64,000 nt of DNA from Pseudomonas sp. NCCP-436 (GTDB lineage: Bacteria > Pseudomonadota > Gammaproteobacteria > Pseudomonadales > Pseudomonadaceae), in NCBI RefSeq assembly GCF_019656335.1, contig NZ_BPLZ01000003.1, positions 62,001 through 126,000 on the forward strand, written 5' to 3'. Made by a program: the position numbers and the translations under genes. Shown one piece after another: positions 6,398-62,543 of this stretch. Within the stretch, counting starts at the first letter, position 1; each line of letters begins with the position of its first letter. The notes under the pieces are model-generated. The model saw only the letters and a program-made list of their open reading frames with translations. It was not told the origin of the DNA and searched no databases.

Positions 6398-7585
6398 ATG
6401 AACAGCTCATCCCTACATCTGGCTCTGGTCAGCGAAACCTTCGCTCCCGAGATAAACGGCGTGGCCAATACCCTCGGCCAGTTGGTTCGCGGCTTGCGTG
6501 CCCGCGGCCACCGGGTGCAACTGATACGCCCCCGGCAAAAGGCTGATCCGGCAGCATCTGAGGACGCGGATCAGTTGCTGACCCGTGGCTGCCCGCTGCC
6601 GGGCTATCCAGGCTTGCAATGGGGGCTTCCAGCTCGACGCAGGCTGCTGCGAGAATGGCGACAACAACCACCGGATCTGCTCTACATCGCCACAGAAGGC
6701 CCGCTTGGCCTGTCCGCACTGCGAGTTGCGAAACACTTGGCAATTCCAGTGGTGAGCGGTTTTCACACCAATTTCCAGCAGTACGCCGGACTCTACGGCA
6801 TCACTGCCCTCACGCGACTGCTGACACACTACCTGCGCCACTTCCACAACCGCACGCAACTGACTCTGGTACCCAGTAGTAGCCAGATGACTGCGTTGGA
6901 GCGGCGCGGCTTCCAGCGATTGGCGCTACTGGCTCGTGGCGTCGACAGTCAGCTGTTTCATCCCGGCCGCCGCTGCGATGCTCTGCGTGCCAGTTGGGGA
7001 CTGCACCCCGACGACCTGGCGCTGCTGTATGTCGGCCGACTGGCAGCGGAGAAAAACCTCGGCCTGCTGGTTCAGACCTTTCATATGCTGCGCCAGCGTT
7101 ACCCCCAGCGCCGTCTGCGCCTGATTCTGGTAGGCGATGGCCCGCTGCGCGCACAGCTTCAGACTCGACTGCCGGACGCCCTGTTCTGCGGCATGCAACA
7201 CGGCGAGGTGCTAGCCCGGCACTACGCCTCAGGAGATCTGTTTCTGTTTCCCAGCCTGTCGGAAACCTTTGGCAACGTGGTGCTGGAAGCCCTGGCCTCC
7301 GGCCTGGCCGTGGTAGCCTTCGATCAGGCCGCTGCAGCCCAGCACATCGCTCACCGACACAACGGCATGCTCGTACGCCCCGGCGATGCACAGGGCTTCG
7401 GCGAGGCAACCGCCGAGCTGCTGAGCGAGGCGGAGCTGCTCCGCCAGGTTCGCCTGAACGCCCGCCGGCACGCCGCACCACTTAGCTGGGAGACCTTCGT
7501 AAGCAGCTTTGAGCGCTGCCTGTTCGATGTTCTGCTGGCGCGGGCAACCCCTATCAACGCAGCGTCTTCAGCGCCTCCCGGCTAA
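6398..7585 (+). CDS. GT4-type glycosyltransferase
   Basis: A 395-residue GT-B fold glycosyltransferase of family GT4. The N-terminal half has the acceptor-side motif ETFAPEINGVANTL (residues 12-25) and HTNF; the donor half has LYVGRLAAEKNL, and FPSLSETFGNVVLEALASGLAV, in which the E-x7-E pair binds the nucleotide sugar. It is closest in pattern to mannosyl-, glucuronosyl- or sulfoquinovosyl-diacylglycerol synthases (MgtA/SQD2-like), which make glycolipids, but the sugar and acceptor cannot be read from the sequence. The 3' end overlaps the convergent oxidoreductase gene by 32 bases, so both stop codons lie inside the other gene. Confidence 0.85.
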   Translation: MNSSSLHLALVSETFAPEINGVANTLGQLVRGLRARGHRVQLIRPRQKADPAASEDADQLLTRGCPLPGYPGLQWGLPARRRLLREWRQQPPDLLYIATEGPLGLSALRVAKHLAIPVVSGFHTNFQQYAGLYGITALTRLLTHYLRHFHNRTQLTLVPSSSQMTALERRGFQRLALLARGVDSQLFHPGRRCDALRASWGLHPDDLALLYVGRLAAEKNLGLLVQTFHMLRQRYPQRRLRLILVGDGPLRAQLQTRLPDALFCGMQHGEVLARHYASGDLFLFPSLSETFGNVVLEALASGLAVVAFDQAAAAQHIAHRHNGMLVRPGDAQGFGEATAELLSEAELLRQVRLNARRHAAPLSWETFVSSFERCLFDVLLARATPINAASSAPPG

Positions 7586-8663
7586 ACGGCAGAATTTCCC
7601 GTTCACGCCCCTCGCGGATCTTCAGAGCCCAGTCCGGATCGACCAGCAGCGCCCGGCCCACCGCCACCAGGTCGAATTCCTCCCTGTTCAGGCGCTCCAG
7701 CAGGTTCTCGATGCTGGCCGGCTCGGCCACCTTGTCGGTATTGACCATGAACTGCAGGAACTCGCCATCCAGCCCGACGCTGCCGACGGTGATGGTCGGT
7801 TTGCCGGTGAGCTTGCGCGTCCAGCCAGCCAGATTGAGGTCGCTGCCTTCGAATTCCGGCTCCCAAAATCGACGGGTCGAGCAATGGAAGATGTCCACAC
7901 CGGCCTCGGACAAAGGCTTGAGGAAGGCCTCCAATTGCTCCGGGGTCTGTACCAGGCGCGCGCTGTAGTCCTGCTGTTTCCACTGCGAGAAGCGAAATAT
8001 GATCGGGAAGTCTGGCCCAACCGCCGCGCGCACAGCCCGGATCAGCTCGATGGCAAAACGCGAACGCGCAGCCAGGTCACCGCCGTATTGGTCGCTACGC
8101 TGGTTGCTGCCTTCCCAGAAGAACTGGTCGATCAGATAGCCGTGCGCACCATGGAGTTCTACGCCATCCATACCGATGGCCTTGGCATCGCGCGCAGCCT
8201 GGGCGAAGGCGGCGATCACCTCATCGATGTCGGCCTGGGTCATACCCTGCACTATTACCTGACCGTCTTTGACCTTCTCCATCGGGCCGTAACCGGGTAC
8301 GGCCGGATCCGGCTCGGTGCCCAGACGGCGCACGTTACCCACGTGCCACAGCTGCGGAACTATCCTGCCGCCCTCGGCGTGCACCGCCTCGACCACCTGC
8401 TTCCAGCCGGCCAGAGCATCCTCGCCATGAAATCGCGGCACGTTCGGGTAGCCATTGGCCGCCTTGTGCCCAACGGTGGTGCCCTCAGTGATGATCAGGC
8501 CCACGCCGGCAGCAGCACGACGGCGGTAGTACTCGACGACCTTGGCGTTGGGCACGCCGCCGGGCGAGAAGGAACGGGTCATCGGTGCCATGACCACACG
8601 GCTCGGCAACTCCAGGCTACCGAGACGAAACGGAACGAACAGGGCTTGTACGGATGCGTTCAT
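7554..8663 (-). CDS. Old Yellow Enzyme family flavin reductase (NemA-like)
   Basis: A 369-residue TIM-barrel FMN oxidoreductase of the Old Yellow Enzyme family, which reduces activated alkenes such as N-ethylmaleimide, and nitrate esters, with NAD(P)H. The active-site pair His171/His174 is in VELHGAHGY, followed by SDQYGGDLAARSRF (190-203), both typical. The C-terminal phosphate-binding part has DLVAVGRALLVDPDW. The start overlaps the stop of the upstream TetR gene by 4 bases (ATGA), so translation is coupled and the pair has the nemR-nemA arrangement of E. coli. Because that repressor gene is interrupted, expression may be constitutive (inference). Natural substrates are unknown. Confidence 0.9.
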   Translation of the reverse strand: MNASVQALFVPFRLGSLELPSRVVMAPMTRSFSPGGVPNAKVVEYYRRRAAAGVGLIITEGTTVGHKAANGYPNVPRFHGEDALAGWKQVVEAVHAEGGRIVPQLWHVGNVRRLGTEPDPAVPGYGPMEKVKDGQVIVQGMTQADIDEVIAAFAQAARDAKAIGMDGVELHGAHGYLIDQFFWEGSNQRSDQYGGDLAARSRFAIELIRAVRAAVGPDFPIIFRFSQWKQQDYSARLVQTPEQLEAFLKPLSEAGVDIFHCSTRRFWEPEFEGSDLNLAGWTRKLTGKPTITVGSVGLDGEFLQFMVNTDKVAEPASIENLLERLNREEFDLVAVGRALLVDPDWALKIREGREREILPFSREALKTLR

Positions 8664-9271
8664 GAAGGATCCTCTGAGTGATCAGCCTGCAGCAAACGCT
8701 CCAGACGGATGATGAAAGCCTCCAGTGGCTGCAGACTACGACTGACTTTGAGCCGTGCCAGCACACCCTGCCAGGCATTGCTGATAAAGATCGCAAGGTT
8801 GTCGCAATCCTCGTCGAGCGGAAGTTCACCGGTGCTCTGTGCCTGATTCAGGCAATCGCGCAGGATATCCACCGCAGCCTGCTGGATGGCCTCGACCTCG
8901 GCACCGATGGCCAGCAGCATCTCGCTCATTTCAAAGCTCAGGCTACCGATAAAACAGTGATACTGCGCTATCTCCTAGCGGGCGAAATACGCCAGCAGGT
9001 CACGGTAATAATCGAGAATGCGCGTCCGTGGACTCAGCGCCGGGTTGTTCAGCGCCTTGGCATAACGTGCCAGGCGCGGCCGATAGATAAAGGCCAGCGC
9101 CTGCAGGGCGAAGTCTTCCTTGCTGGCGAAGTAGTGATAGAAACTGCCCTTGGGAATCCCCGCCGCCCGAACAATCTCCTGTACCCCGGTTCCATGGTAG
9201 CCGTGGCGGATCATCGCCGCCGAGCCCCTACTCAGGATCAGGTCGCGCTTGTCGGATCGAATGCTGTTCAT
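8660..9271 (-). pseudogene. NemR-like TetR repressor gene interrupted by an in-frame amber stop
   Basis: Two same-frame segments together make a full TetR/AcrR regulator. The N-terminal 98 residues contain the helix-turn-helix (VQEIVRAAGIPKGSFYHYFASKE, residues 32-54). Codon 99 is TAG (8975-8977), and the frame then runs on without a shift for 104 codons of a normal ligand-binding domain. Residues just after the stop (YHCFIGSL) align with the segment of E. coli NemR that carries the redox-sensing Cys106. The start is ATG 9271; a TTG further upstream is not supported. The gene overlaps the OYE reductase gene by 4 bases. It may be a recent pseudogene, a suppressed amber, or a sequencing error; no other damage is visible, which favours recent loss or error. 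Confidence 0.82.
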
Positions 9272-9375
9272 GAAGGCAAGGATATGACCGGTCGTCTCAC
9301 CCAACCCAGCACTATTGATAAGGTTGATCAGGCGTCACAGGTCAACACGGACCAACATGACAAGCGCAGAACGCG

Positions 9376-16770: not shown

Positions 16771-17280
16771 ATGAAAGGACGCTTTCAGGATGCTCTCAGC
16801 CTGACCGAACTGCTCGTAACCCTGGCTATTTTCAGTGCAGGGTTGGCGATAGCCGTTCCGGCTTACTCCACACTGAAGCTGCAGAGCCAGCACAACGCTC
16901 TGCGCGAACAGTTGCATGCCTCACTCAACCACGCCCGGCTCCAGGCCGTGCTACGCCGCACCAACGTCAGACTCTGCGGATCGGCTGACGGCCTGACCTG
17001 CGACAACAACTGGAGCCGGGGCTGGCGCATATACCTGCCCGGCAAAACCGAACAAACATTACAGATCCAGCGCTTCGAAACCTCTTCGACACTGCGCTGG
17101 AGTGGCTTCGAAAGCAGCCTGAATTTTTACAGCAATGGCACAACACCTACGGGCAATGGACGCTTCTTTCAGTGCCGGGATTCGGAAATTTCCTGGCAAC
17201 TGATCATCAACCGTCAGGGCCGTGTAAGACAAGCCAGACATGCCGAGAACAAGGCCGAGGCTCATCGCTGCTCGTCCTGA
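16771..17280 (+). CDS. fimT: Type IV pilus minor pilin FimT (GspH/FimT family)
   Basis: A 169-residue prepilin-like protein. The N-terminus has a short charged leader and a hydrophobic helix (residues 9-30) with Glu at +5 of the mature protein, as in pilins. The cleavage region reads DALSLTELL, so the residue before the cut is Ala8 rather than the usual Gly, and +1 is Leu rather than Phe. The C-terminal globular part has the GspH-like NxxW/GWRIY pattern and a Cys pair (C70/C76 region) plus C-terminal Cys. FimT-type pilins in some species bind DNA for natural uptake. It is separated from fimU by 135 bases, unlike the rest of the operon. Confidence 0.85.
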   Translation: MKGRFQDALSLTELLVTLAIFSAGLAIAVPAYSTLKLQSQHNALREQLHASLNHARLQAVLRRTNVRLCGSADGLTCDNNWSRGWRIYLPGKTEQTLQIQRFETSSTLRWSGFESSLNFYSNGTTPTGNGRFFQCRDSEISWQLIINRQGRVRQARHAENKAEAHRCSS

Positions 17281-17288
17281 AGATCATT

Positions 17289-17308
17289 GCACCAAACTGA
17301 CATGGTGC
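17289..17308. repeat. Inverted repeat upstream of fimU
   Basis: GCACCA (17289-17294) and TGGTGC (17303-17308) form a 6-bp inverted repeat with an 8-base spacer in the 135-base fimT-fimU gap. It may be a regulator site or an mRNA hairpin. I looked for the AlgR site known upstream of P. aeruginosa fimU (CCGTTCGTC) and found no exact copy. Confidence 0.35.
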
Positions 17309-17415
17309 CAGTGAACCTGCAGCTCATCGCCCCCAGGCGACCAACCGTCCCGCTACGGCAGACATCCCAAATGACCTGCAGCAGTATTTGCTCGGATTTC
17401 CACAAGGAGCAAATC

Positions 17416-17964
17416 ATGTCACGGCCTCATGGCATGCACGGATTCAGCCTTATCGAGCTGCTGATCGTAGTGGCCTTGCTGTCGATCGCTGCCGGAGTCG
17501 CGCTTCCAGGCTTTACCCGCATGATCGAAAACAACCGGATTGAAGCGCAGGCGCAGACTCTCAACAGCCTTCTGCAATACGCACGTTCCCAGGCGATTGT
17601 CCGCCGATCCTCGGTGCAATTGAGTAGAGATGCAGCGACCTCTTCCACTCCCAGCCCGGAATGGGTAGTGACCAATCTTTCCGACAACAGCGTGTTGCGC
17701 CGGGAACAGCTGAACGCCGGGCACGCCCGGGTGCTCAGTGCAGGCAACCCGAACGATGCGTCTGTCGAAGTGAAGGTCATCTACACCAGCAGTGGCTCTG
17801 TGGAAACTGCCGACAATCTGGTCATCTGCCAGGGTGACAAGCTCGCTTTCGCCTACCTTATCGCCATCCAGCCAAGCGGCAGTACTCGACTAATGCCACG
17901 CGGCAAGAGCGACATGAAGGAGACCCCCCTTGATCCGGCAACATGGAAAGGCTGCGCACTATGA
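17416..17964 (+). CDS. fimU: Type IV pilus minor pilin FimU
   Basis: A 182-residue GspH-type minor pilin, a core part of the pilus tip-priming complex with PilV, PilW, PilX and PilY1. It has a nine-residue leader, then the canonical prepilin peptidase site MHG/FSLIELL with Glu at +5, a hydrophobic helix and the typical NNRIEAQAQTLNSLLQYARSQAI segment. The ATG at 17416 has AAGGAG eight bases upstream. Its stop overlaps the pilV start by 4 bases (ATGA). In P. aeruginosa this operon is activated by AlgR. Confidence 0.92.
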   Translation: MSRPHGMHGFSLIELLIVVALLSIAAGVALPGFTRMIENNRIEAQAQTLNSLLQYARSQAIVRRSSVQLSRDAATSSTPSPEWVVTNLSDNSVLRREQLNAGHARVLSAGNPNDASVEVKVIYTSSGSVETADNLVICQGDKLAFAYLIAIQPSGSTRLMPRGKSDMKETPLDPATWKGCAL

Positions 17965-18494
17965 AACAGATGAATTGCAACAGCCGGGGCTTCAGCTTCA
18001 TCGAGGTGCTGGTCACTCTGGTACTGCTGACCATCGGAGTACTTGGCATGGTGGCCATGCAGGGTCGGGGTATCCAGCTCACCTCAGACTCGGTAGCCCG
18101 CAACAACGCAGTCATGCTAGCCACGGATCTGCTGGAAAAAATGCGCGCCAACCCGGCTCGTATGACGCAGTTTGTTCTGGATGAACTCCCGGACGCAGGA
18201 GCCTGCGAAGGCGAAGAACCCAATACCCCGATCCAGGCCGATGATGTCAAGCGGCAACTGGCCTGCTGGAGTCAGCAGGTACGCACCCTCCTGCCCGGCA
18301 CGGACGGCAATGGGGAAGACGCCAAAGCCGTACGCCAGGCGTTCCGGGTCTGTCGCTCGAAAAAGCCAGGTGAATGCAGTGACGGCTCAGCAGTCGAGAT
18401 CCAGGTCGCCTGGCGCTCAAATGGCGAGGCCTGCGGCACCGAAAACAACGATGCTCGCTTCATTTGTCGCTTCACTTTGCGCGGGGAGCTTTGA
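17961..18494 (+). CDS. pilV: Type IV pilus minor pilin PilV
   Basis: A 177-residue minor pilin with a ten-residue leader and cleavage site SRG/FSFIEVLVTLVLLTIGVLGM, the signature of the PilV family. The globular domain contains several cysteines (for example in GACEG, ACWSQ, FRVCRSKKPGECSDG, FICRF) that can form disulfides. ATG 17961 overlaps the fimU stop; an in-frame ATG at 17943 would extend into fimU and is less likely. It is part of the pilus-initiation complex. Confidence 0.9.
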   Translation: MKQMNCNSRGFSFIEVLVTLVLLTIGVLGMVAMQGRGIQLTSDSVARNNAVMLATDLLEKMRANPARMTQFVLDELPDAGACEGEEPNTPIQADDVKRQLACWSQQVRTLLPGTDGNGEDAKAVRQAFRVCRSKKPGECSDGSAVEIQVAWRSNGEACGTENNDARFICRFTLRGEL

Positions 18495-18496
18495 AC

Positions 18497-19216
18497 ATGC
18501 ACAAGCAACACGGCATTTCCATCATCGAAATGATGGTCGCCCTGCTCATCAGCAGTTTTCTGATCCTGGGTATCACCCAAGTCTATCTGGACAACCGGCA
18601 AAACACCCTGTTCCAGCAAAGCCAGGGCAGCAATATCGAGAATACGCGATATTCCATTCTGATTCTGGAGCAAACCCTGGCCAAGACAGGCTATCGTCGG
18701 CGCCCCGATGATTCCATGGAATCTGCATTTCCCCAAATCAGCACCCCCTGCGCAATGGAAGCGGGTCAAACAGCCAAAAAACTGAGTGCAACATCCTTCT
18801 GTGTCCGGTACCAGCCAGCTTTTCCTTCGACACGCAGCTGCGACGGCAACATTCCGGATGCGGCCAATGCAAGTAAAAGCCCCTATCAGCCTCGTGAGGC
18901 TTTCGTCGAAGTATTTGATCTGCAAACAGGGGAACTTCGGTGCAATGGGCAGACCATTGCCAGCGGCATCACTGCTATCAACTTTCTTTACGGCTACAAC
19001 CAGAACGAAGAAAAGGAAATCCGCCAGTACAACGACGAGCCGGGAACAGGAAACATTCGTGCCGTGCAGTTTTCCATCATGGCCGCCAGTGATGCGGAAG
19101 TCGGCAAGACTGCAGGCAGCGTCGTCTACAAGCACTGGTTCGGAGAAGAGCCGGATGACAAGCGCCTCTACACCATGCTCTCCAGCAGCACCAGCATGAG
19201 GAACCTGATGCCATGA
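18497..19216 (+). CDS. pilW: Type IV pilus minor pilin PilW
   Basis: A 239-residue minor pilin with a short six-residue leader and cleavage site QHG/ISIIEMMVALLISSF, Glu at +5. The first mature residue is Ile, which is tolerated by prepilin peptidase. The globular domain is larger than that of FimU or PilV and has scattered cysteines. It starts two bases after pilV and its stop overlaps pilX by 4 bases. With PilX and PilY1 it forms the tip subcomplex that primes pilus assembly and, in P. aeruginosa, passes surface-contact signals. Confidence 0.88.
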   Translation: MHKQHGISIIEMMVALLISSFLILGITQVYLDNRQNTLFQQSQGSNIENTRYSILILEQTLAKTGYRRRPDDSMESAFPQISTPCAMEAGQTAKKLSATSFCVRYQPAFPSTRSCDGNIPDAANASKSPYQPREAFVEVFDLQTGELRCNGQTIASGITAINFLYGYNQNEEKEIRQYNDEPGTGNIRAVQFSIMAASDAEVGKTAGSVVYKHWFGEEPDDKRLYTMLSSSTSMRNLMP

Positions 19217-19776
19217 ACAACTTTCAGTACCTTGGCCGGCGCGCCAGCCAGAGGGGAGTCAGCCTCCTGGTAGCTCTGGTCTTTCTTCTGGTAATTACCG
19301 TTATTGCCATTGCCAACATGCGTGAGGTCAGCCTGGAAGCACGTATTACCGGCAATATGATCGAGCAAAAACAACTGCTCAATATCGCTGAAGCCAGCGT
19401 TCGGGACGGAGAGCGGCGCACCCTGTTCCTTGGTCCACACGAACCTGCGGAGGATTGCAAGGATCTGGAGCCGGGCGAGTTATGCCTGCTGCATCGCACC
19501 CCGGATTATGCCGTCAACACCGATGATGGCGCCCAAAAGTACTCCCCTGGTGATGACACGGTTCTTTCCGATTACGCCTCTGCCAATTGGTATGCGCAGA
19601 TAGCCCCTGGTGGAGAGTTGCAGGGCGAGTCGGAAAATCCGGAATACGGCAACATGCTTCTGGGTATCGGCGTATTCCGTTATGAGATTACCGGAGCAGC
19701 CAGTAGCAACGGCCTCAACAGTGCCGTTCGCTCGACTGTGGCACTGAATGCCAAGGGTCGGATTGAACGAGAGTAA
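19213..19776 (+). CDS. pilX: Type IV pilus minor pilin PilX
   Basis: A 187-residue minor pilin. A fifteen-residue leader is followed by QRG/VSLLVALVFLLVITVIAIANM. Position +5 is Val rather than Glu, which is normal for PilX/GspK-type pilins at the very tip. The segment LEARITGNMIEQKQLLNIAEASVRDGE is diagnostic of PilX. It overlaps pilW at its start and the last base of its TAA is the first base of the pilY1 ATG. Confidence 0.9.
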   Translation: MNNFQYLGRRASQRGVSLLVALVFLLVITVIAIANMREVSLEARITGNMIEQKQLLNIAEASVRDGERRTLFLGPHEPAEDCKDLEPGELCLLHRTPDYAVNTDDGAQKYSPGDDTVLSDYASANWYAQIAPGGELQGESENPEYGNMLLGIGVFRYEITGAASSNGLNSAVRSTVALNAKGRIERE

Positions 19777-22700
19777 TGATCATGCCCGTCATGTTATATA
19801 CACGGAACACTGCCATGAGCGTATCCCCAGCTTTCACAAAAAGCCTTCTGAGCACACTAGGCTTCTTTATTTATTTTTCTGGTGTCATGCAAGCCAGCGC
19901 TGCAGCGCTTAACGTCAGCCAGAAGCCGCTGATGCTGACGGAAACCGTTCCGCCAAACCTGATTGTGACGCTGGACGACTCCGGCAGTATGCGCGAGGCT
20001 TTTACTCCCGAATCGATCGATGGAAACAGAGACACGCGTCGGGCCAAGTCATCCACCTTCAACTCGATGTACTACAACCCGGCGGTCACGTACCAGATCC
20101 CGAGAAAATACGATGCCAACGGCACTGAGAACGGTACCTACAGCACCTCGTTTACGAATGCCTACTATAACGGGTACAAGTCGAATCTAGGCGGTCTCGA
20201 CCTGCGCACCGGCTATCGCGTGTCCTGGTGGTACAAACCCACTGTGGCTCATAGCAACACGTTCACGGCAAACGATCCCGACTATAGCTACCGTCAGTTC
20301 GCCGATAACCCCACGACTGACTTCAATTTCGATAGCGGAAACTTCGACGGCCCCGCCACAAATGGCCAATCGCATACACGAACCTCCGGAGGACACACGT
20401 ACACCGTAACCCGCACAAGCAGCGGTTGTACGGTTAGTTTCGCCCACACTACGCCCTACAACGTCAGCTGTACCCGAACGAACAATACCTATAGGGTAAG
20501 AAGGGCAAGTAACTCGACGCAGACAGGCGTCCCCGCCTACTACTACACCTTCAATCCTGCACAATGCACCTCAAAGCTGACCACGGACGACGCCTGCTAC
20601 AGACTGGTGTTCGTCTCGGAGACCTCCGGCATAGGAGGCACCGACGAGCGCCAGAACTTCGCCATCTGGTACTCGTTCTATCGCAACCGTGCCCTCGCCA
20701 CCATGACGGCCGCGCGTATCGCCTTTGCCAACATGTCACCGTCGGCTCGACTAACCTGGCAGAGCCTGAACAAGTGCACCACTCTGGACAGCTCCAGCAA
20801 CTGCAACGACAACCGCTTCCGGGAGTTTTCGGCAGCTCAGCGCGGTCGTTTTTTCTCTTGGCTTGACACTCTGGACTTCAACTCCGGTACGCCGCTACGT
20901 ACAGCAATGGGACGTGCGGGCGAGTTTCTGAAGAAGCCTGTAGCCTGGCACAAGTACCCGAATGACAACAGCAAGACCAATACCACCGCGAACACTTACA
21001 GCTGCCGTCCGAGCTATCACGTCATGATGACCGACGGCATATGGAACGGTAATGACGGCTCTCCGTCAGACCCGCGGAAAAGCGATGGTGCGTCTTTCAC
21101 CCTGCCCAACAACAGGACTTATACCACCTCGATAACGCCCTATGCGGATAGCACCAACAACACGCTTGCCGACCTCGCCATGCACTACTGGGCTACCGAC
21201 CTGAATACCAACCTCAAGAACGACCTGAATCCTTATATCCAGTTCAAGAACGAGGACGCCACCACACAGTTCTGGGACCCGCGGAACAACCCCGCGACCT
21301 GGCAGCACATGGTCAACTTCACCATGGGCCTGGGCCTGACCCGCAGCCTTAGCGAAGCGGGAATCGAATGGCAGGGCAGTACCTTCGCCAGTGCTTCGAA
21401 TGGCAATGGCTACGAGAATCTCAAGAACGGAACCGTCCCGTGGCCGAGCATCAATACGGGCACCGATGACCCCAAAAAGGTTTATGACCTCTGGCACGCG
21501 GCAATCAACTCCCGCGGCGAGTTCTTCAGCGTTGACAGTCCCGACGATATGGTCAAGGCATTCAAGGACATTCTGAACCGGATTGCCGACCGTACCACCA
21601 CCTCGGCACGCCCTGCGGTCTCAGCGGCCTTTGTGGCCGACGGTGCTGGCGGCAGCCTGCACAGCAACGTCTACGCCACCCAGTTTTCCAGCGAGGACTG
21701 GAGTGGCGAGCTCAGTAAAACACTGGTAACCCAAGATAAGCTGACCACTTTGTGGAACACTCGAACGGCCAACCAGGGAGTCAATCCCGATAGCCGAAAC
21801 ATTCTTATGGCCAATCCAGGTCTGAGCGACAGCAAACTGAAGGCCTTTACCTGGAAAAACCTTTCCAGCGAGCAGCAGACAGCTCTCAATACGGATCCGG
21901 AAAGCTTGGTGAACAAACTGGACGGACGAGGCGAGCAACGGCTTGCCTATATCCGCGGAAGCCGGGCTCAGGAAGGCGAGAGCGCTAGCAGCTTCCGCAA
22001 ACGCAATGCCAACACAGTTATCGGCGATATCGTCAACTCCAGCCCCGTGGTGGTGGGAACCCCTGCCTACCTGGCCTATCTGGCCGACTCGATAGAGCAA
22101 CCGGATCGTAGCAACTACCAGAGTTATGCGACTTTCCGCGAGCAAAACCGCAAGGCATATACCAATAAGGACGGGCAGACTGCTGGCCGCAAGGAGATGA
22201 TCTACGTCGGCTCCAATGACGGCATGCTGCACGGTTTCAATGCTGAGACGGGGGTCGAGGAGTTTGCCTTTATCCCCAGCGAAGTGTTCAAAAACCTTCA
22301 TCGCCTTACCGGCAAGAACTACATCGGGGGTGAGCACCGCTTCTTTGTCGACGGAACCCCGATTGTCCGGGATGTCTACCTGAGCGATACCGACGGCTGG
22401 CGAACCGTGCTGGTCGGCACGCTGCGTGCAGGTGGCAAGGCACTCTTTGCTCTGGATATCACGGATCCGAACGCCATCAAGCTGCTCTGGGAATTCGACA
22501 GCACTGCCGAGGGTGGTGACGAGGATCTCGGTTATACCTTTGCCCAGCCGGAAATCGTGCGACTGCATACCGGTCAGTGGGCGGTATTGCAGGGTAATGG
22601 CTATGACAGCGCAAAAGACAAAGCAGCGCTGCTGATCATCGATATCAAGACTGGAGATCTGATCAAGAAGATCACTATCCCGGAAATTACCGAAGACAAC

Positions 22701-23813
22701 ATTACCCTGCCCAACGGGCTCTCCAGCGTACGTGGTGCCGATAACAACGGCGACGGCCTGGTGGACTACGCCTACGCAGGCGACCTGCTCGGCAACCTCT
22801 GGCGCTTCGACCTGGTAAAAACCACCAGCTCTGACCCAAACGAGTTGGAATATCTTGATGAGAAGGGCGTTCCAGTCAAAACCAACGACCCATTCAGCCG
22901 TTACCTGGAAGATGTCAAATCCACCAAAGTGTCCGATTTCACCCTGGCTTACGGTGGCAAGCCACTGTTCACTGCCAGGGATGAGAACGATAACTCCAAG
23001 CGCCGACAGCCGATCACCATTCAGCCGTCGCTGGTGCGTCATCCGACTCGTCATGGCTATCTCGTGCTGGTAGGCACTGGAAAGTACTTCGAAAACAGTG
23101 ACGCCAACGTCGATACCAGCCGGGCCATGACGCTCTATGGCATCTGGGATCGCAATACCAAAAGGCAAAAGACTACGGCAAACCATCTGGTAGCCGAAAA
23201 CCGCACCAAGCTGCTTGAACAGTCTTTCGCGTCTCAACACGACGGAGCCCAGTTCACCAACGAGGAAAATACAGCTACAACTAGCCGGGATATTCGTTTG
23301 CTCAGCGAGAACAAACCGAAGTGGTACAAGACCCTCAAGGACGAAGGGGTCTATCTGACAGCAACTGGCCAGGTCGACATGCAGGACGACCGAAACGTCA
23401 TCGACTGGGGCTGGAAACTCGACATGACCGTGGAAGCCAAGCTGACTGGCGAGATGATCGTCAGCAACATGACCGCCAGCGGCTCCATTCTGTTCCTCAG
23501 CAGCCTGACCCCCAATCAGGATCCCTGCCAGGCAGGAGCAGATACCTGGCTCTATGCCGTCGATGCTTACAGTGGTGGCCGTACTCGCTTCAATGTCCTG
23601 GATCTCAACGCCGACAAGATGATCAGCTCACGCGACGAATATGGCGGCAAAACAATATCAGGCATGCGTTTCCCTGCCGTGGGTGGCTTTACCCTGGCCC
23701 CGGGCAACACGCTTTTCGGCAGCACCGGAGCGGCGGATCCCACGCTGGTAGGCGACGATCCCAACAGTCGCGGCCGTCAGAGCTGGCATATCATTCCCGA
23801 GGAGTACCAATGA
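19776..23813 (+). CDS. pilY1: Pilus tip adhesin/mechanosensor PilY1
   Basis: A protein of up to 1345 residues (1332 if ATG 19815 is used, which places the signal peptide [12 protein letters not shown]...ASAAA at the N-terminus). A von Willebrand A-like domain has a MIDAS motif DDSGSM (67-72) and the downstream TDGIWNG; a Ser/Thr/Cys-rich stretch lies around 190-265. The C-terminal half is a PilY1 beta-propeller with a calcium loop DNNGDGLVD (989-997) followed by [16 protein letters not shown]. The protein sits at the pilus tip, and calcium binding controls extension and retraction in P. aeruginosa. It is longer than PAO1 PilY1 (about 1160). Its stop overlaps the pilE start. No RGD integrin motif was seen. 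Confidence 0.93.
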
Positions 23814-24362: not shown

Positions 24363-25307
24363 TCAAAGCTGGCGAACACGCAACTCCTTTGGCATCGAGA
24401 AGGTTATGTTCTCTTCACGGCCATCCAGCTCGGTCTCAGCCTCTGCGCCCCAGGCGCGCAACTGTTCCAGGACGCCACGCACCAGAATCTCCGGCGCGGA
24501 AGCACCCGCCGTGATACCGACCTGGCCGACCCCTTCGAACCATTCACGACGCAGATCCTCGGCACCATCGATCAGATAGGCCGGCGTACCCATACGCTCG
24601 GCAAGCTCACGCAAGCGGTTGGAGTTGGAACTGTTGGGACTGCCGACCACCAGTAGCACATCACAGACACTGGCCAACTGCTTGACTGCATCCTGACGGT
24701 TCTGTGTGGCATAGCAGATATCGTCCTTACGCGGGCCGCCGATGGCGGGAAAGCGGCTGCGCAGCGCATCGATCACCTTGCTGGTATCGTCCATGGACAA
24801 GGTCGTCTGGGTGACAAAGGCCAGATGCTCAGGGTCACGCACCTGTAGCTCGGCCACATCGTCCTCGTTCTCGACCAGATAGATGGCGCCACCGTTGCTG
24901 GCGTCGTATTGGCCCATGGTGCCCTCGACTTCCGGGTGCCCTTCATGGCCGATCAGAATGCACTCGCGCCCTTCGCGACTGTAGCGGACCACTTCCATAT
25001 GCACCTTGGTAACCAGCGGACAGGTGGCATCGAACACCTTCAGCCCGCGTCGTGCGGCTTCGTCGCGCACCGCCTTGGACACACCATGGGCGCTGAAAAT
25101 GACAATGACGTCATCCGGCACCTGATCCAGCTCCTCGACGAACACCGCCCCACGGGCACGCAGATCCTCGACCACGAACTTGTTATGCACGACTTCATGG
25201 CGCACGTAGATGGGCGGGCCGAATACCTCCAGAGCACGGTTGACGATCTCGATGGCCCGGTCGACCCCGGCGCAGAAGCCGCGTGGATTGGCAAGTTTGA
25301 TATGCAT
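24363..25307 (-). CDS. ispH: 4-hydroxy-3-methylbut-2-enyl diphosphate reductase IspH
   Basis: A 314-residue iron-sulfur enzyme for the last step of the MEP isoprenoid pathway, giving IPP and DMAPP. The three cluster-binding cysteines are in GFCAGV (Cys12), DATCPLVTK and VVGSPNSSN-flanked [16 protein letters not shown] and [14 protein letters not shown] are also conserved. ATG 25307 gives the usual length; an upstream in-frame ATG would add 22 unrelated residues. It is the last gene of the minus-strand run ribF-ileS-lspA-fkpB-ispH. Confidence 0.96.
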
Positions 25308-25421
25308 ACTGGCTGTCCCGCTACTGATAGGAATCGGCCTGAACGATTCCGGAAGGCTGCAGCCGGCAATCAAGGATGCCGGCTGTCAGAGATGAAGGTT
25401 CGAACTGTCCAGGTCTTTCGG

Positions 25422-25859
25422 CTAGAGCGCCCGCACCGCGATGATTTCCACCTCGAAGTCCAGCTCCTTGCCAGCCAACGGATGATTGAAATCCACGGTT
25501 ACCCGGGTCTCATCGAAGGCCTTCACCACACCTGGCAGCTCAGCATTGGCGGCATCGTTGAAGATCACCAGCAAACCTTCGGAAAGCTCCATACCCTCGA
25601 ACTGACTACGCGGCATAACCTGCACGTTCTGCGGGTTGGGCTGGCCGAAGCCCTGCTCCGGCTGAATCCGGATCGTCCGCCGGTCACCGGCCTTGAAGCC
25701 GTAGAGCGCCTGCTCGAATCCCGGCAACAGATTGCCGTCGCCGACCTGGAAGGTGGCGGGTTGCTTATCGAAGGTACTATCGACTACTTCGCCACTTTCC
25801 AGTCTGAGGGCGAAATGCAGGGTTACTTCCCGATCCGGGCCGATACGCAGGTCTGTCAT
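25422..25859 (-). CDS. fkpB: FKBP-type peptidyl-prolyl isomerase (SlpA/FkpB-like)
   Basis: A 145-residue isomerase of the SlyD/SlpA class. Residues 10-70 and 125-145 form the FKBP core (LESGEVVDSTFD, GDGNLLPGFEQALYGFKAGD), and the inserted flap region (FGQPNPQNVQVMPRSQFEG) is the IF domain with chaperone activity. It lacks the His-rich tail of SlyD. It overlaps lspA by 4 bases (ATGA). The lspA-fkpB-ispH order is conserved in many gammaproteobacteria, though why these genes are linked is unknown. Confidence 0.93.
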   Translation of the reverse strand: MTDLRIGPDREVTLHFALRLESGEVVDSTFDKQPATFQVGDGNLLPGFEQALYGFKAGDRRTIRIQPEQGFGQPNPQNVQVMPRSQFEGMELSEGLLVIFNDAANAELPGVVKAFDETRVTVDFNHPLAGKELDFEVEIIAVRAL

Positions 25860-26365
25860 CGTGCTGCCTCCTTCGCAGACTTGTCACCCCTGAACATATC
25901 CAACGCCAGCAGGATGGCTCCGAGAGTGATAAAGGTGTCTGCCAGGTTAAAGGCCGGGAACAACCAGCGATCCTGCCAGTGCACCAGGATGAAGTCGACT
26001 ACATGTCCCAGCACTACCCGGTCGTACAGATTGCCCAGCGCCCCGCCAAGCACCATGGCCAGTGCCACGGCCAGCAGAGTTTCCTGCGGTTTCAGACGCT
26101 TCAGCCAGACCACTAGCACAGCGCTGACAATGACGGCTATGGCAGCGAAGAACCAGCGCTGCCAGCCGGCCGCATCGGCCAGAAAGCTGAAGGCGGCTCC
26201 GGTGTTGTAGGCCAGAGTCCAGTCAAAATAGCCCGGAATCACCTGAACCCGCTGATACATGGCCAGACTGCCTTCGGCGATCACCTTTGTCAGGCGATCG
26301 CCGATCAGGATCAGGAGGCTCAGCAGCAACCAGGGCAAATGACCGAAACGAGCCGCATTAGGCAT
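25856..26365 (-). CDS. lspA: Signal peptidase II (prolipoprotein signal peptidase) LspA
   Basis: A 169-residue inner-membrane aspartyl protease that cuts the signal peptide off diacylglyceryl-prolipoproteins such as BamD and Pal in this window. Four transmembrane helices are apparent. The catalytic aspartates are in [14 protein letters not shown] and [11 protein letters not shown], and YNTGAAFSF is also conserved. ATG 26365 starts inside the end of ileS (8-base overlap); a longer upstream frame would only add ileS-overlapping sequence. Confidence 0.95.
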
Positions 26366-61301: not shown

Positions 61302-62543
61302 ATGCAAGTGATGAAGTGGAGCGTAATCGCCCTGGCAGTAGCCGCGGGCACCAGCCAAATGGCCGTGGCGTCCAGCCAGTCCGAGTCGAACGGCTTTATC
61401 GAAGACAGCAGCTTCAACATCTTCAACCGCGTTCTGTACATGAACCGCGACTTCCGTAATGGTCCGAACACTGCCGGCACTGGCGACAAGGGCTACCGTG
61501 AAGAGACCGGCCTGGGCATTCGCCTGCTGTTCGAATCCGGCTTCACCCAAGGTACTGTAGGCGTAGGCTTCGACGCTCACTCGCTGACCAGCATCAAGAT
61601 CGACAGCGGCCGCGGCCGCTACGGCACTGGCCAGTTCGCCCGGACCGACGACGGCCGCGGTGACGACACCCAGACCGAAGTAGGCGGCGCCATCAAGTTC
61701 CGTGTTTCCGACACCGTTCTGAAGTACGGCAACCAGTTCGTGGCCAACCCGGTGTTCTCCACCGACGACAGCCGCATCCTGCCGGAAGTTGCTACCGGTA
61801 CCCTGCTGACCAGCAATGAAATCGAAGGCCTGGAGCTGACCGCTGGTCGCTTCACCGCCCTGAACGCCCAGGAATACACTGGTCGTGACAGCCTCGAGCT
61901 GAAAGAAATCAACTTCGCTGGCGCCAGCTACAGCTTCACCGACGACTTCAGCGGCGCTCTGTTTGCTTCCGACGTCGACGATGTCTGGAAGAAGTATTAC
62001 GGCAACCTGAACTACAACCTGGCACTGGCTGAAGAGCAGGCGCTGAACTTCGACTTCAACATCTACAAGACCGACTACGACAAGAAGTACACCGGTACTG
62101 GCAAGAGCGAAGACAACACCATCTGGAGCCTGGCAGCTGCCTACTCCCTGGGCGCTCACACCTTCACCCTGGCTCACCAGCGTGCCAGCGGCGACCGTGG
62201 CTACGACTACGGCGTAGACGGCGGCGGCACCATCTGGCTGGCCAACTCCGTTCAGTACTCCGACTTCAACCAGAAAGACGAGAAGTCCTGGCAGGCTCGT
62301 TACGACCTGAACATGGCTTCCTACGGCGTACCGGGCCTGAGCTTCATGACCCGTTACATCCGCGGTACTGCTGCCGACAACTACACTGAGCGCGAACTGG
62401 ACATCGAAGCCAAGTACGTGATCCAGGAAGGTGCTGCGAAGGATCTGTCCTTCCGTATCCGCAACGCCTTCTACCGCGACAACGCTCAAGGCGACGTGAA
62501 CGACTTCCGCCTGATCGTCGAATACCCGCTGAGCGTTCTGTAA
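61302..62543 (+). CDS. OprD family outer-membrane porin
   Basis: A 413-residue outer-membrane protein with signal peptide MQVMKWSVIALAVAAGTSQMAVA. It has the OprD-family N-terminus SNGFIEDSSFNIFNRVLYMNRDFRNG, repeated amphipathic beta strands ending in aromatic residues, and a C-terminal strand ending VEYPLSVL. Family members form narrow channels for basic amino acids or carboxylates, and OprD itself admits carbapenems. By position it corresponds to the P. aeruginosa oprD locus (between proS and dps, from memory), but substrate is not certain. Codon use is that of a highly expressed gene. Confidence 0.92.
   Translation: MQVMKWSVIALAVAAGTSQMAVASSQSESNGFIEDSSFNIFNRVLYMNRDFRNGPNTAGTGDKGYREETGLGIRLLFESGFTQGTVGVGFDAHSLTSIKIDSGRGRYGTGQFARTDDGRGDDTQTEVGGAIKFRVSDTVLKYGNQFVANPVFSTDDSRILPEVATGTLLTSNEIEGLELTAGRFTALNAQEYTGRDSLELKEINFAGASYSFTDDFSGALFASDVDDVWKKYYGNLNYNLALAEEQALNFDFNIYKTDYDKKYTGTGKSEDNTIWSLAAAYSLGAHTFTLAHQRASGDRGYDYGVDGGGTIWLANSVQYSDFNQKDEKSWQARYDLNMASYGVPGLSFMTRYIRGTAADNYTERELDIEAKYVIQEGAAKDLSFRIRNAFYRDNAQGDVNDFRLIVEYPLSVL

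Follow-up and report, generated by a model that had tools for sequence, protein, structure and literature searches.

Does the gene that stands directly ahead of an old-yellow-enzyme-type reductase in Pseudomonas sp. NCCP-436 still encode a repressor, or has a single codon put an end to it? The question is raised by a stretch of 64,000 nucleotides of this genome (the window: positions 62,001 to 126,000 of contig NZ_BPLZ01000003.1), in which a TetR-family reading frame on the minus strand, running from 9271 to 8660, consists of 98 codons, a TAG (8977-8975), 104 further codons and a TGA. It is likely, in our view, that a nonsense mutation has recently destroyed the function of a local NemR-like TetR repressor, one that probably regulated its own gene. 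The features on which the argument turns are collected in Table 1.

Table 1. Features of the repressor-reductase locus, in window coordinates.
Feature	Position	Strand	Basis
Interrupted TetR-family repressor gene (probable recent pseudogene)	8660..9271	-	Translation, domain matches, alignment of relatives
In-frame TAG, codon 99	8975..8977	-	Translation; sense in 45/45 distinct relatives
N-terminal 98 codons, TetR_N DNA-binding part	8978..9271	-	Domain match
C-terminal part, TetR_C_13 with Cys106 and Lys175 (full-frame numbering)	8663..8974	-	Domain match, alignments
Operator-like site AGACGACCGGTC (putative), 26 nt ahead of the repressor start	9286..9297	-	Position, relatives
Conserved upstream element CAATAGTGCTG	9307..9317	-	Relatives, repressor-less loci
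Old-yellow-enzyme-type flavin reductase (Oxidored_FMN), intact, 369 aa	7554..8663	-	Frame, domain match
Frame-shifted repressor 3′ end, seven added codons to a new 4-nt reductase overlap	8660..8686	-	1-nt deletion against nearest relatives

Translation of the assembly confirms the amber codon that, according to the initial annotation, splits the repressor gene. The piece before it contains the DNA-binding domain of TetR/AcrR proteins, TetR_N (55.2 bits against a Pfam cut-off of 24), and the piece after it contains TetR_C_13 (40.7 bits against a cut-off of 27), so that in this genome the C-terminal domain, sitting behind the TAG, is not on the same chain as the DNA-binding domain, while in all 30 aligned relatives the repressor is a single uninterrupted chain. 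The view that the two parts add up to a complete TetR protein is right insofar as both domains lie in one frame, but it fails for the last seven codons, which are not ancestral. The stop does stand just ahead of the segment expected to carry the redox-sensing cysteine, as had been claimed, with Cys106 seven codons past the TAG and aligned with the cysteine of NemR. The codon itself was compared across 46 distinct loci of at least 50% identity, the window's included, in which loci sharing one and the same 540-nt core entered as a single locus and from which 52 loci (L049-L100) of the 80 from one search, all below 50% identity, were left out. Only the window has TAG at this position; the close relatives, whose codon had been proposed as a check, have a sense codon in all 45 other distinct loci, and in 40 of them it is glutamine. 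Likewise, among the 22 genomes of the genus sample that have the gene, a TAG inside the repressor match occurs in the window's genome only; the TGA noted in the matches of ten others proved to be the genes' own ends in the loci read, and the genome-match listing shows no stop inside the gene of G133 and G139, which lie outside the locus set. A conserved or programmed stop is ruled out, none of the 45 distinct relatives having a stop at codon 99. That the repressor is broken by a single codon, which is our main inference, is well supported.

A cell that read TAG as an amino acid often enough, by means of a suppressor tRNA or programmed read-through, could still make the repressor, and the frame past the stop is indeed well conserved, with a dN/dS of 0.09-0.12 for the C-terminal part on the window's branch. 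Some near-cognate read-through, too, is always present at a low level, but natural read-through of this kind should be small. ARAGORN, run on the loci that cover all 58 tRNA hits of the genome, gave no hit with a CUA anticodon, which is the outcome of the check for suppressor tRNAs that the initial annotation had suggested; moreover, the genome has an unbroken gene for release factor 1. For these two reasons decoding of the TAG is unlikely. The absence of a stop at this place in all 45 relatives read also speaks against it, as does the use of TAG as the terminator of 9 of 55 ORFs in the window, a count from a rough GC-based choice of ORFs in which antisense ones are included. Taken together, we regard amber decoding as highly improbable, and the suggestion of amber suppression is not borne out.

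It may be asked instead whether the stop exists in the cell at all, because an error of sequencing or assembly would mean that the true genome has a sense codon here and that its repressor works. Such an error would fit a repressor gene that is as a whole under purifying selection and that retains its operator-like site. One genome represents the species, and the 1-nt deletion at the 3′ end of the gene could likewise be an error. The assembly, on the other hand, is listed as 99.99% complete, and a comparison with G077 over roughly 5.6-32 kb of the window speaks against an error. The crude GC rule gave 61 ORFs in this comparison, of which 21 were matched and 20 had at least 50% identity, at least two being antisense. 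Eighteen of the 20 are without a stop, and the other two are the repressor and an antisense ORF, which lies opposite genes that we take, from their translations, to be ispH- and fkpB-like. A second interrupted gene near 24678-26084, once a candidate, is rejected as being this antisense ORF. No other real gene was found interrupted in the stretch compared with G077, and there is accordingly no general excess of errors between 5.6 and 32 kb. An error is in our judgement rather unlikely. The same comparison shows five plus-strand ORFs at window positions 16771-23813 with 52-69% amino-acid identity to G077, amid surrounding sense ORFs at 72-95%; presumably they encode minor pilins of a type IV pilus together with a large protein resembling PilY1.

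How old is the break? The dN/dS of a long-dead gene would approach 1. Three-point estimates on the window's branch gave 0.12-0.16 for the whole repressor gene, beside 0.13-0.18 for the upstream neighbour, which we take to be pgeF-like, and 0.06-0.09 for the reductase. No relaxation of selection is visible across the whole gene at these values, and the break therefore looks recent; over the full length of the gene we reject a long-dead pseudogene, with a reservation concerning the N-terminal part. There the estimate is 0.18-0.22, with 90% bootstrap bounds up to 0.72, against about 0.02-0.06 on the sister branches, the latter being ratios taken from dN and dS. The window's repressor has also changed at four positions of 93% conservation or more, at which L021-L024 show no substitution, and its branch is longer than the sister branches. 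The higher ratio in the N-terminal part could come from selection that slackened somewhat, either before the stop arose or after it, or from the longer branch.

The control region ahead of the gene seems to have survived. The site AGACGACCGGTC, whose core GACCGGTC is palindromic, is found at most 60 nt upstream of the repressor start in 43 of the 45 relatives and at -25 or -26 in 42 of them, the window having it at -26; in L163 the start is misplaced in the reading, which makes its value of -52 unsuitable for comparison, and the exact site is missing upstream of the gene in L047 and L048. Within the window's genome there is one exact copy, at the repressor-reductase locus. Another 20 nt further upstream lies CAATAGTGCTG, which is exact in the window and in 29 of the 45 relatives and is probably part of the promoter; a consensus scan of the control region gave no match to a sigma-70 promoter. 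A second copy of AGACGACCGGTC is present in the gap between repressor and reductase in 24 of the 45 relatives; neither the window nor any of the six relatives nearest to it has one. In G146 (L183) the repressor is missing, and CAATAGTGCTG and a degenerate second operator-like site still stand before the reductase.

In 17 of the 20 genomes searched, AGACGACCGGTC is no commoner than a reversed control motif, and the case for an operator is thus one of position. Four of the 20, the repressor-less G126, G012, G008 and G084, have no copy at all. The repressor-less G002, G005, G010 and G074 have one to three copies elsewhere and no site within 1 kb before the reductase, a search made with a looser motif than the exact one of the genome-wide and locus counts. 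From its position, AGACGACCGGTC is likely to be the operator of the repressor. A literature search with its letters returned one unrelated paper among the matches listed.

Putting these elements together with what is known of the family, we propose that a dimer of the intact repressor would bind AGACGACCGGTC, between CAATAGTGCTG and its own start codon, and so keep the repressor-reductase operon low, until electrophiles or oxidants modify Cys106 and the repressor leaves the DNA. The amber codon would leave as product only the 98 residues of the DNA-binding part, cut off from the domain for dimerisation and sensing, and since the C-terminal domain is missing, this product should not repress. 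With CAATAGTGCTG, the operator-like site and the reductase all intact, the strain probably makes this enzyme constitutively, and derepression is likely. The roughly 311 nt of untranslated message between the TAG and the reductase start may cost part of the gain, and such polarity could offset derepression; by a crude test, five of the six sub-windows of this stretch have a C/G ratio under 1, and a strong Rho site is not suggested by its composition.

Could the two pieces still work although split, the N-terminal fragment binding DNA on its own, or in association with a C-terminal fragment started internally? A frame of 89 amino acids does open with an ATG at 8929, with only a short GAG upstream. 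This start, however, lies past codon 106, so that Cys106 would be in neither piece, and TetR proteins bind DNA as dimers through their C-terminal domain. We consider it very unlikely that the pieces retain function, and prefer the reading of a repressor lost outright.

The reductase itself is unharmed, as had been claimed, its frame running uninterrupted from 8663 to 7554. It belongs to the old yellow enzyme superfamily by its Oxidored_FMN match (235.4 bits against a cut-off of 27), and scores 174.8 bits with the N-ethylmaleimide reductase (NemA) model NF007899, under the cut-off of 403. The end of the repressor frame and the start of the reductase share the four nucleotides ATGA. This overlap, described earlier as intact, is present, but it is not an ancestral feature, because the six nearest relatives (L021, L022, L024 and L150-L152) have a gap of 27 nt in its place. 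Elsewhere among the 45 relatives the gap is 43-197 nt in 35. Overlaps of 4 nt of their own occur in L037, L038, L039 and L044 (4 of 45), all titled Stutzerimonas. The 3′ end of the window's repressor lacks one nucleotide that its nearest relatives have, which shifts the frame and carries it on for seven codons to the ATGA, so that the final seven of the 203 codons fall outside the 196-residue protein of those relatives. Judged by these alignments the overlap is derived in the window, and ancestral 4-nt coupling in this group is rejected. A Shine-Dalgarno-like AGAGG lies seven bases ahead of the window's reductase start, and the same motif precedes the reductase in three nearest relatives, those with the junction printed. 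With an overlap that is new in this group and a reductase that has a Shine-Dalgarno-like signal to itself, the idea that the stop changed translational coupling finds no support where coupling is meant as an inherited feature.

Whether this is an isolated accident can be judged from the wider genus. In a draw of 149 genomes, with thresholds of E 1e-150 for the reductase and E 1e-30 for the repressor, the reductase was found in 127 and repressor matches in 23; the one in G064, which has 37% identity and does not lie near that genome's reductase, belongs to another protein, which leaves 22. The repressor adjoins the reductase by coordinates in 22 of these 22 genomes, as it does in NemR-type loci, and also in the named relatives L021-L048. 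At E 1e-30 and this identity, 105 of the 127 reductase genomes are without it. A reductase tree of 72 rows, of which 45 have the repressor and 27 lack it, places G126, G012 and G008 in a repressor-less clade (support 82) within an 11-row group (support 95, starred) that holds the window. The tree calls for at least five changes of repressor state, only two of them forced by starred branches; being a quick tree with 27 of its 69 forks open, it cannot alone tell gain from loss. The direction is given instead by remnants upstream in repressor-less loci and by the presence of the repressor-reductase pair in Stutzerimonas and Halopseudomonas, which together argue for loss. In G126, G012 and G008, the interval that separates the reductase from the upstream neighbour gene still has CAATAGTGCTG but no longer the operator-like site.

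We tentatively suggest, rating it at less than an even chance, that pseudomonads have repeatedly lost the local repressor of this ene-reductase, itself under strong purifying selection, by a path that leads from inactivation, as in the window, to deletion and then to decay of the operator with the upstream element kept, as in G126, G012 and G008. For repressor-less genomes other than those with remnants, original absence is possible. Repeated loss, if it did take place, would imply that constitutive expression of the ene-reductase has been selected for, or tolerated, time and again.

The loss of a local repressor beside a retained target is a well-known route to constitutive expression, and a lone stop codon is ordinary. 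With several relatives lacking the repressor, the window looks like ordinary gene loss caught early, and its interest is raised somewhat by that absence and by the operator evidence. The case is useful because several stages of loss can be compared within one group of species: the intact pair, the broken repressor with its site kept, and the loci from which both repressor and site have gone. It also gives a NemR-like family of Pseudomonas and Stutzerimonas, as yet without a name, a likely operator, and thereby a testable putative site beside an ene-reductase of possible biocatalytic interest. By their titles and the openings of their abstracts, none of the literature matches listed deals with this gene pair or its loss, nor are these described in the available parts of PMC9407559 and PMC7119367.

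Several known regulators invite comparison. Aligned with X in place of the stop, the read-through frame matches solved TetR proteins over most of its length, the best being chains 3rd3 (E 4e-22) and 4l62 (E 7.1e-22), followed in third place by E. coli NemR (residues 5-193, E 2.2e-20). We take the first two to be PA2196/CurR of P. aeruginosa, which the structure listing calls transcriptional regulators only. Against this resemblance stands the NCBIfam CurR model NF058643, with which the window protein scores 95.6 bits, under the cut-off of 300 (intact relatives: L022 100.2, L021 100.8). Its top NCBIfam score across the whole protein, 112.7 bits, is with the AcuR acrylate regulator (NF051457), yet this is far below the cut-off of 247 (L022 110.6, L021 112.6).

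The likeness to the nemRA-gloA locus of E. coli begins with gene order, a TetR-type repressor gene directly ahead of an old-yellow-enzyme-type reductase, and ends beyond the reductase, where the next gene here is not gloA but a convergent ORF (6398-7585), presumably glycosyltransferase-like. In the protein, Cys106 and Lys175 of the read-through frame align with Cys106 and Lys175 of NemR, residues counted along the printed alignment with an inferred two-residue chain offset, and both are retained in 30 of 30 aligned relatives; in NemR they form the reactive-chlorine switch, according to the part of PMC7464077 available to us. Cys21 and Cys116 of NemR, described in the same part of that paper as forming an electrophile disulfide, have no cysteine at the aligned places in the window frame under this numbering, and the only columns with cysteine in more than 5 of the 31 aligned rows are 106, 140 and 156. 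The NemR-type assignment of the initial annotation accordingly holds for the Cys106 and Lys175 pair and not for Cys21 and Cys116; NemR-like is a fair label, although the curated cut-offs for AcuR and CurR, the two nearest NCBIfam families, are missed as well. A further difference from E. coli is that in the window's genome the repressor gene is broken, and in this respect the locus resembles nfxB of P. aeruginosa, where, as far as the available part of PMC3676378 goes, a negative regulator is inactivated and its target kept. Both have a local repressor inactivated beside an intact target; the target of nfxB is an operon for drug efflux, selected by drugs, whereas here it is an ene-reductase for which no selecting agent is known.
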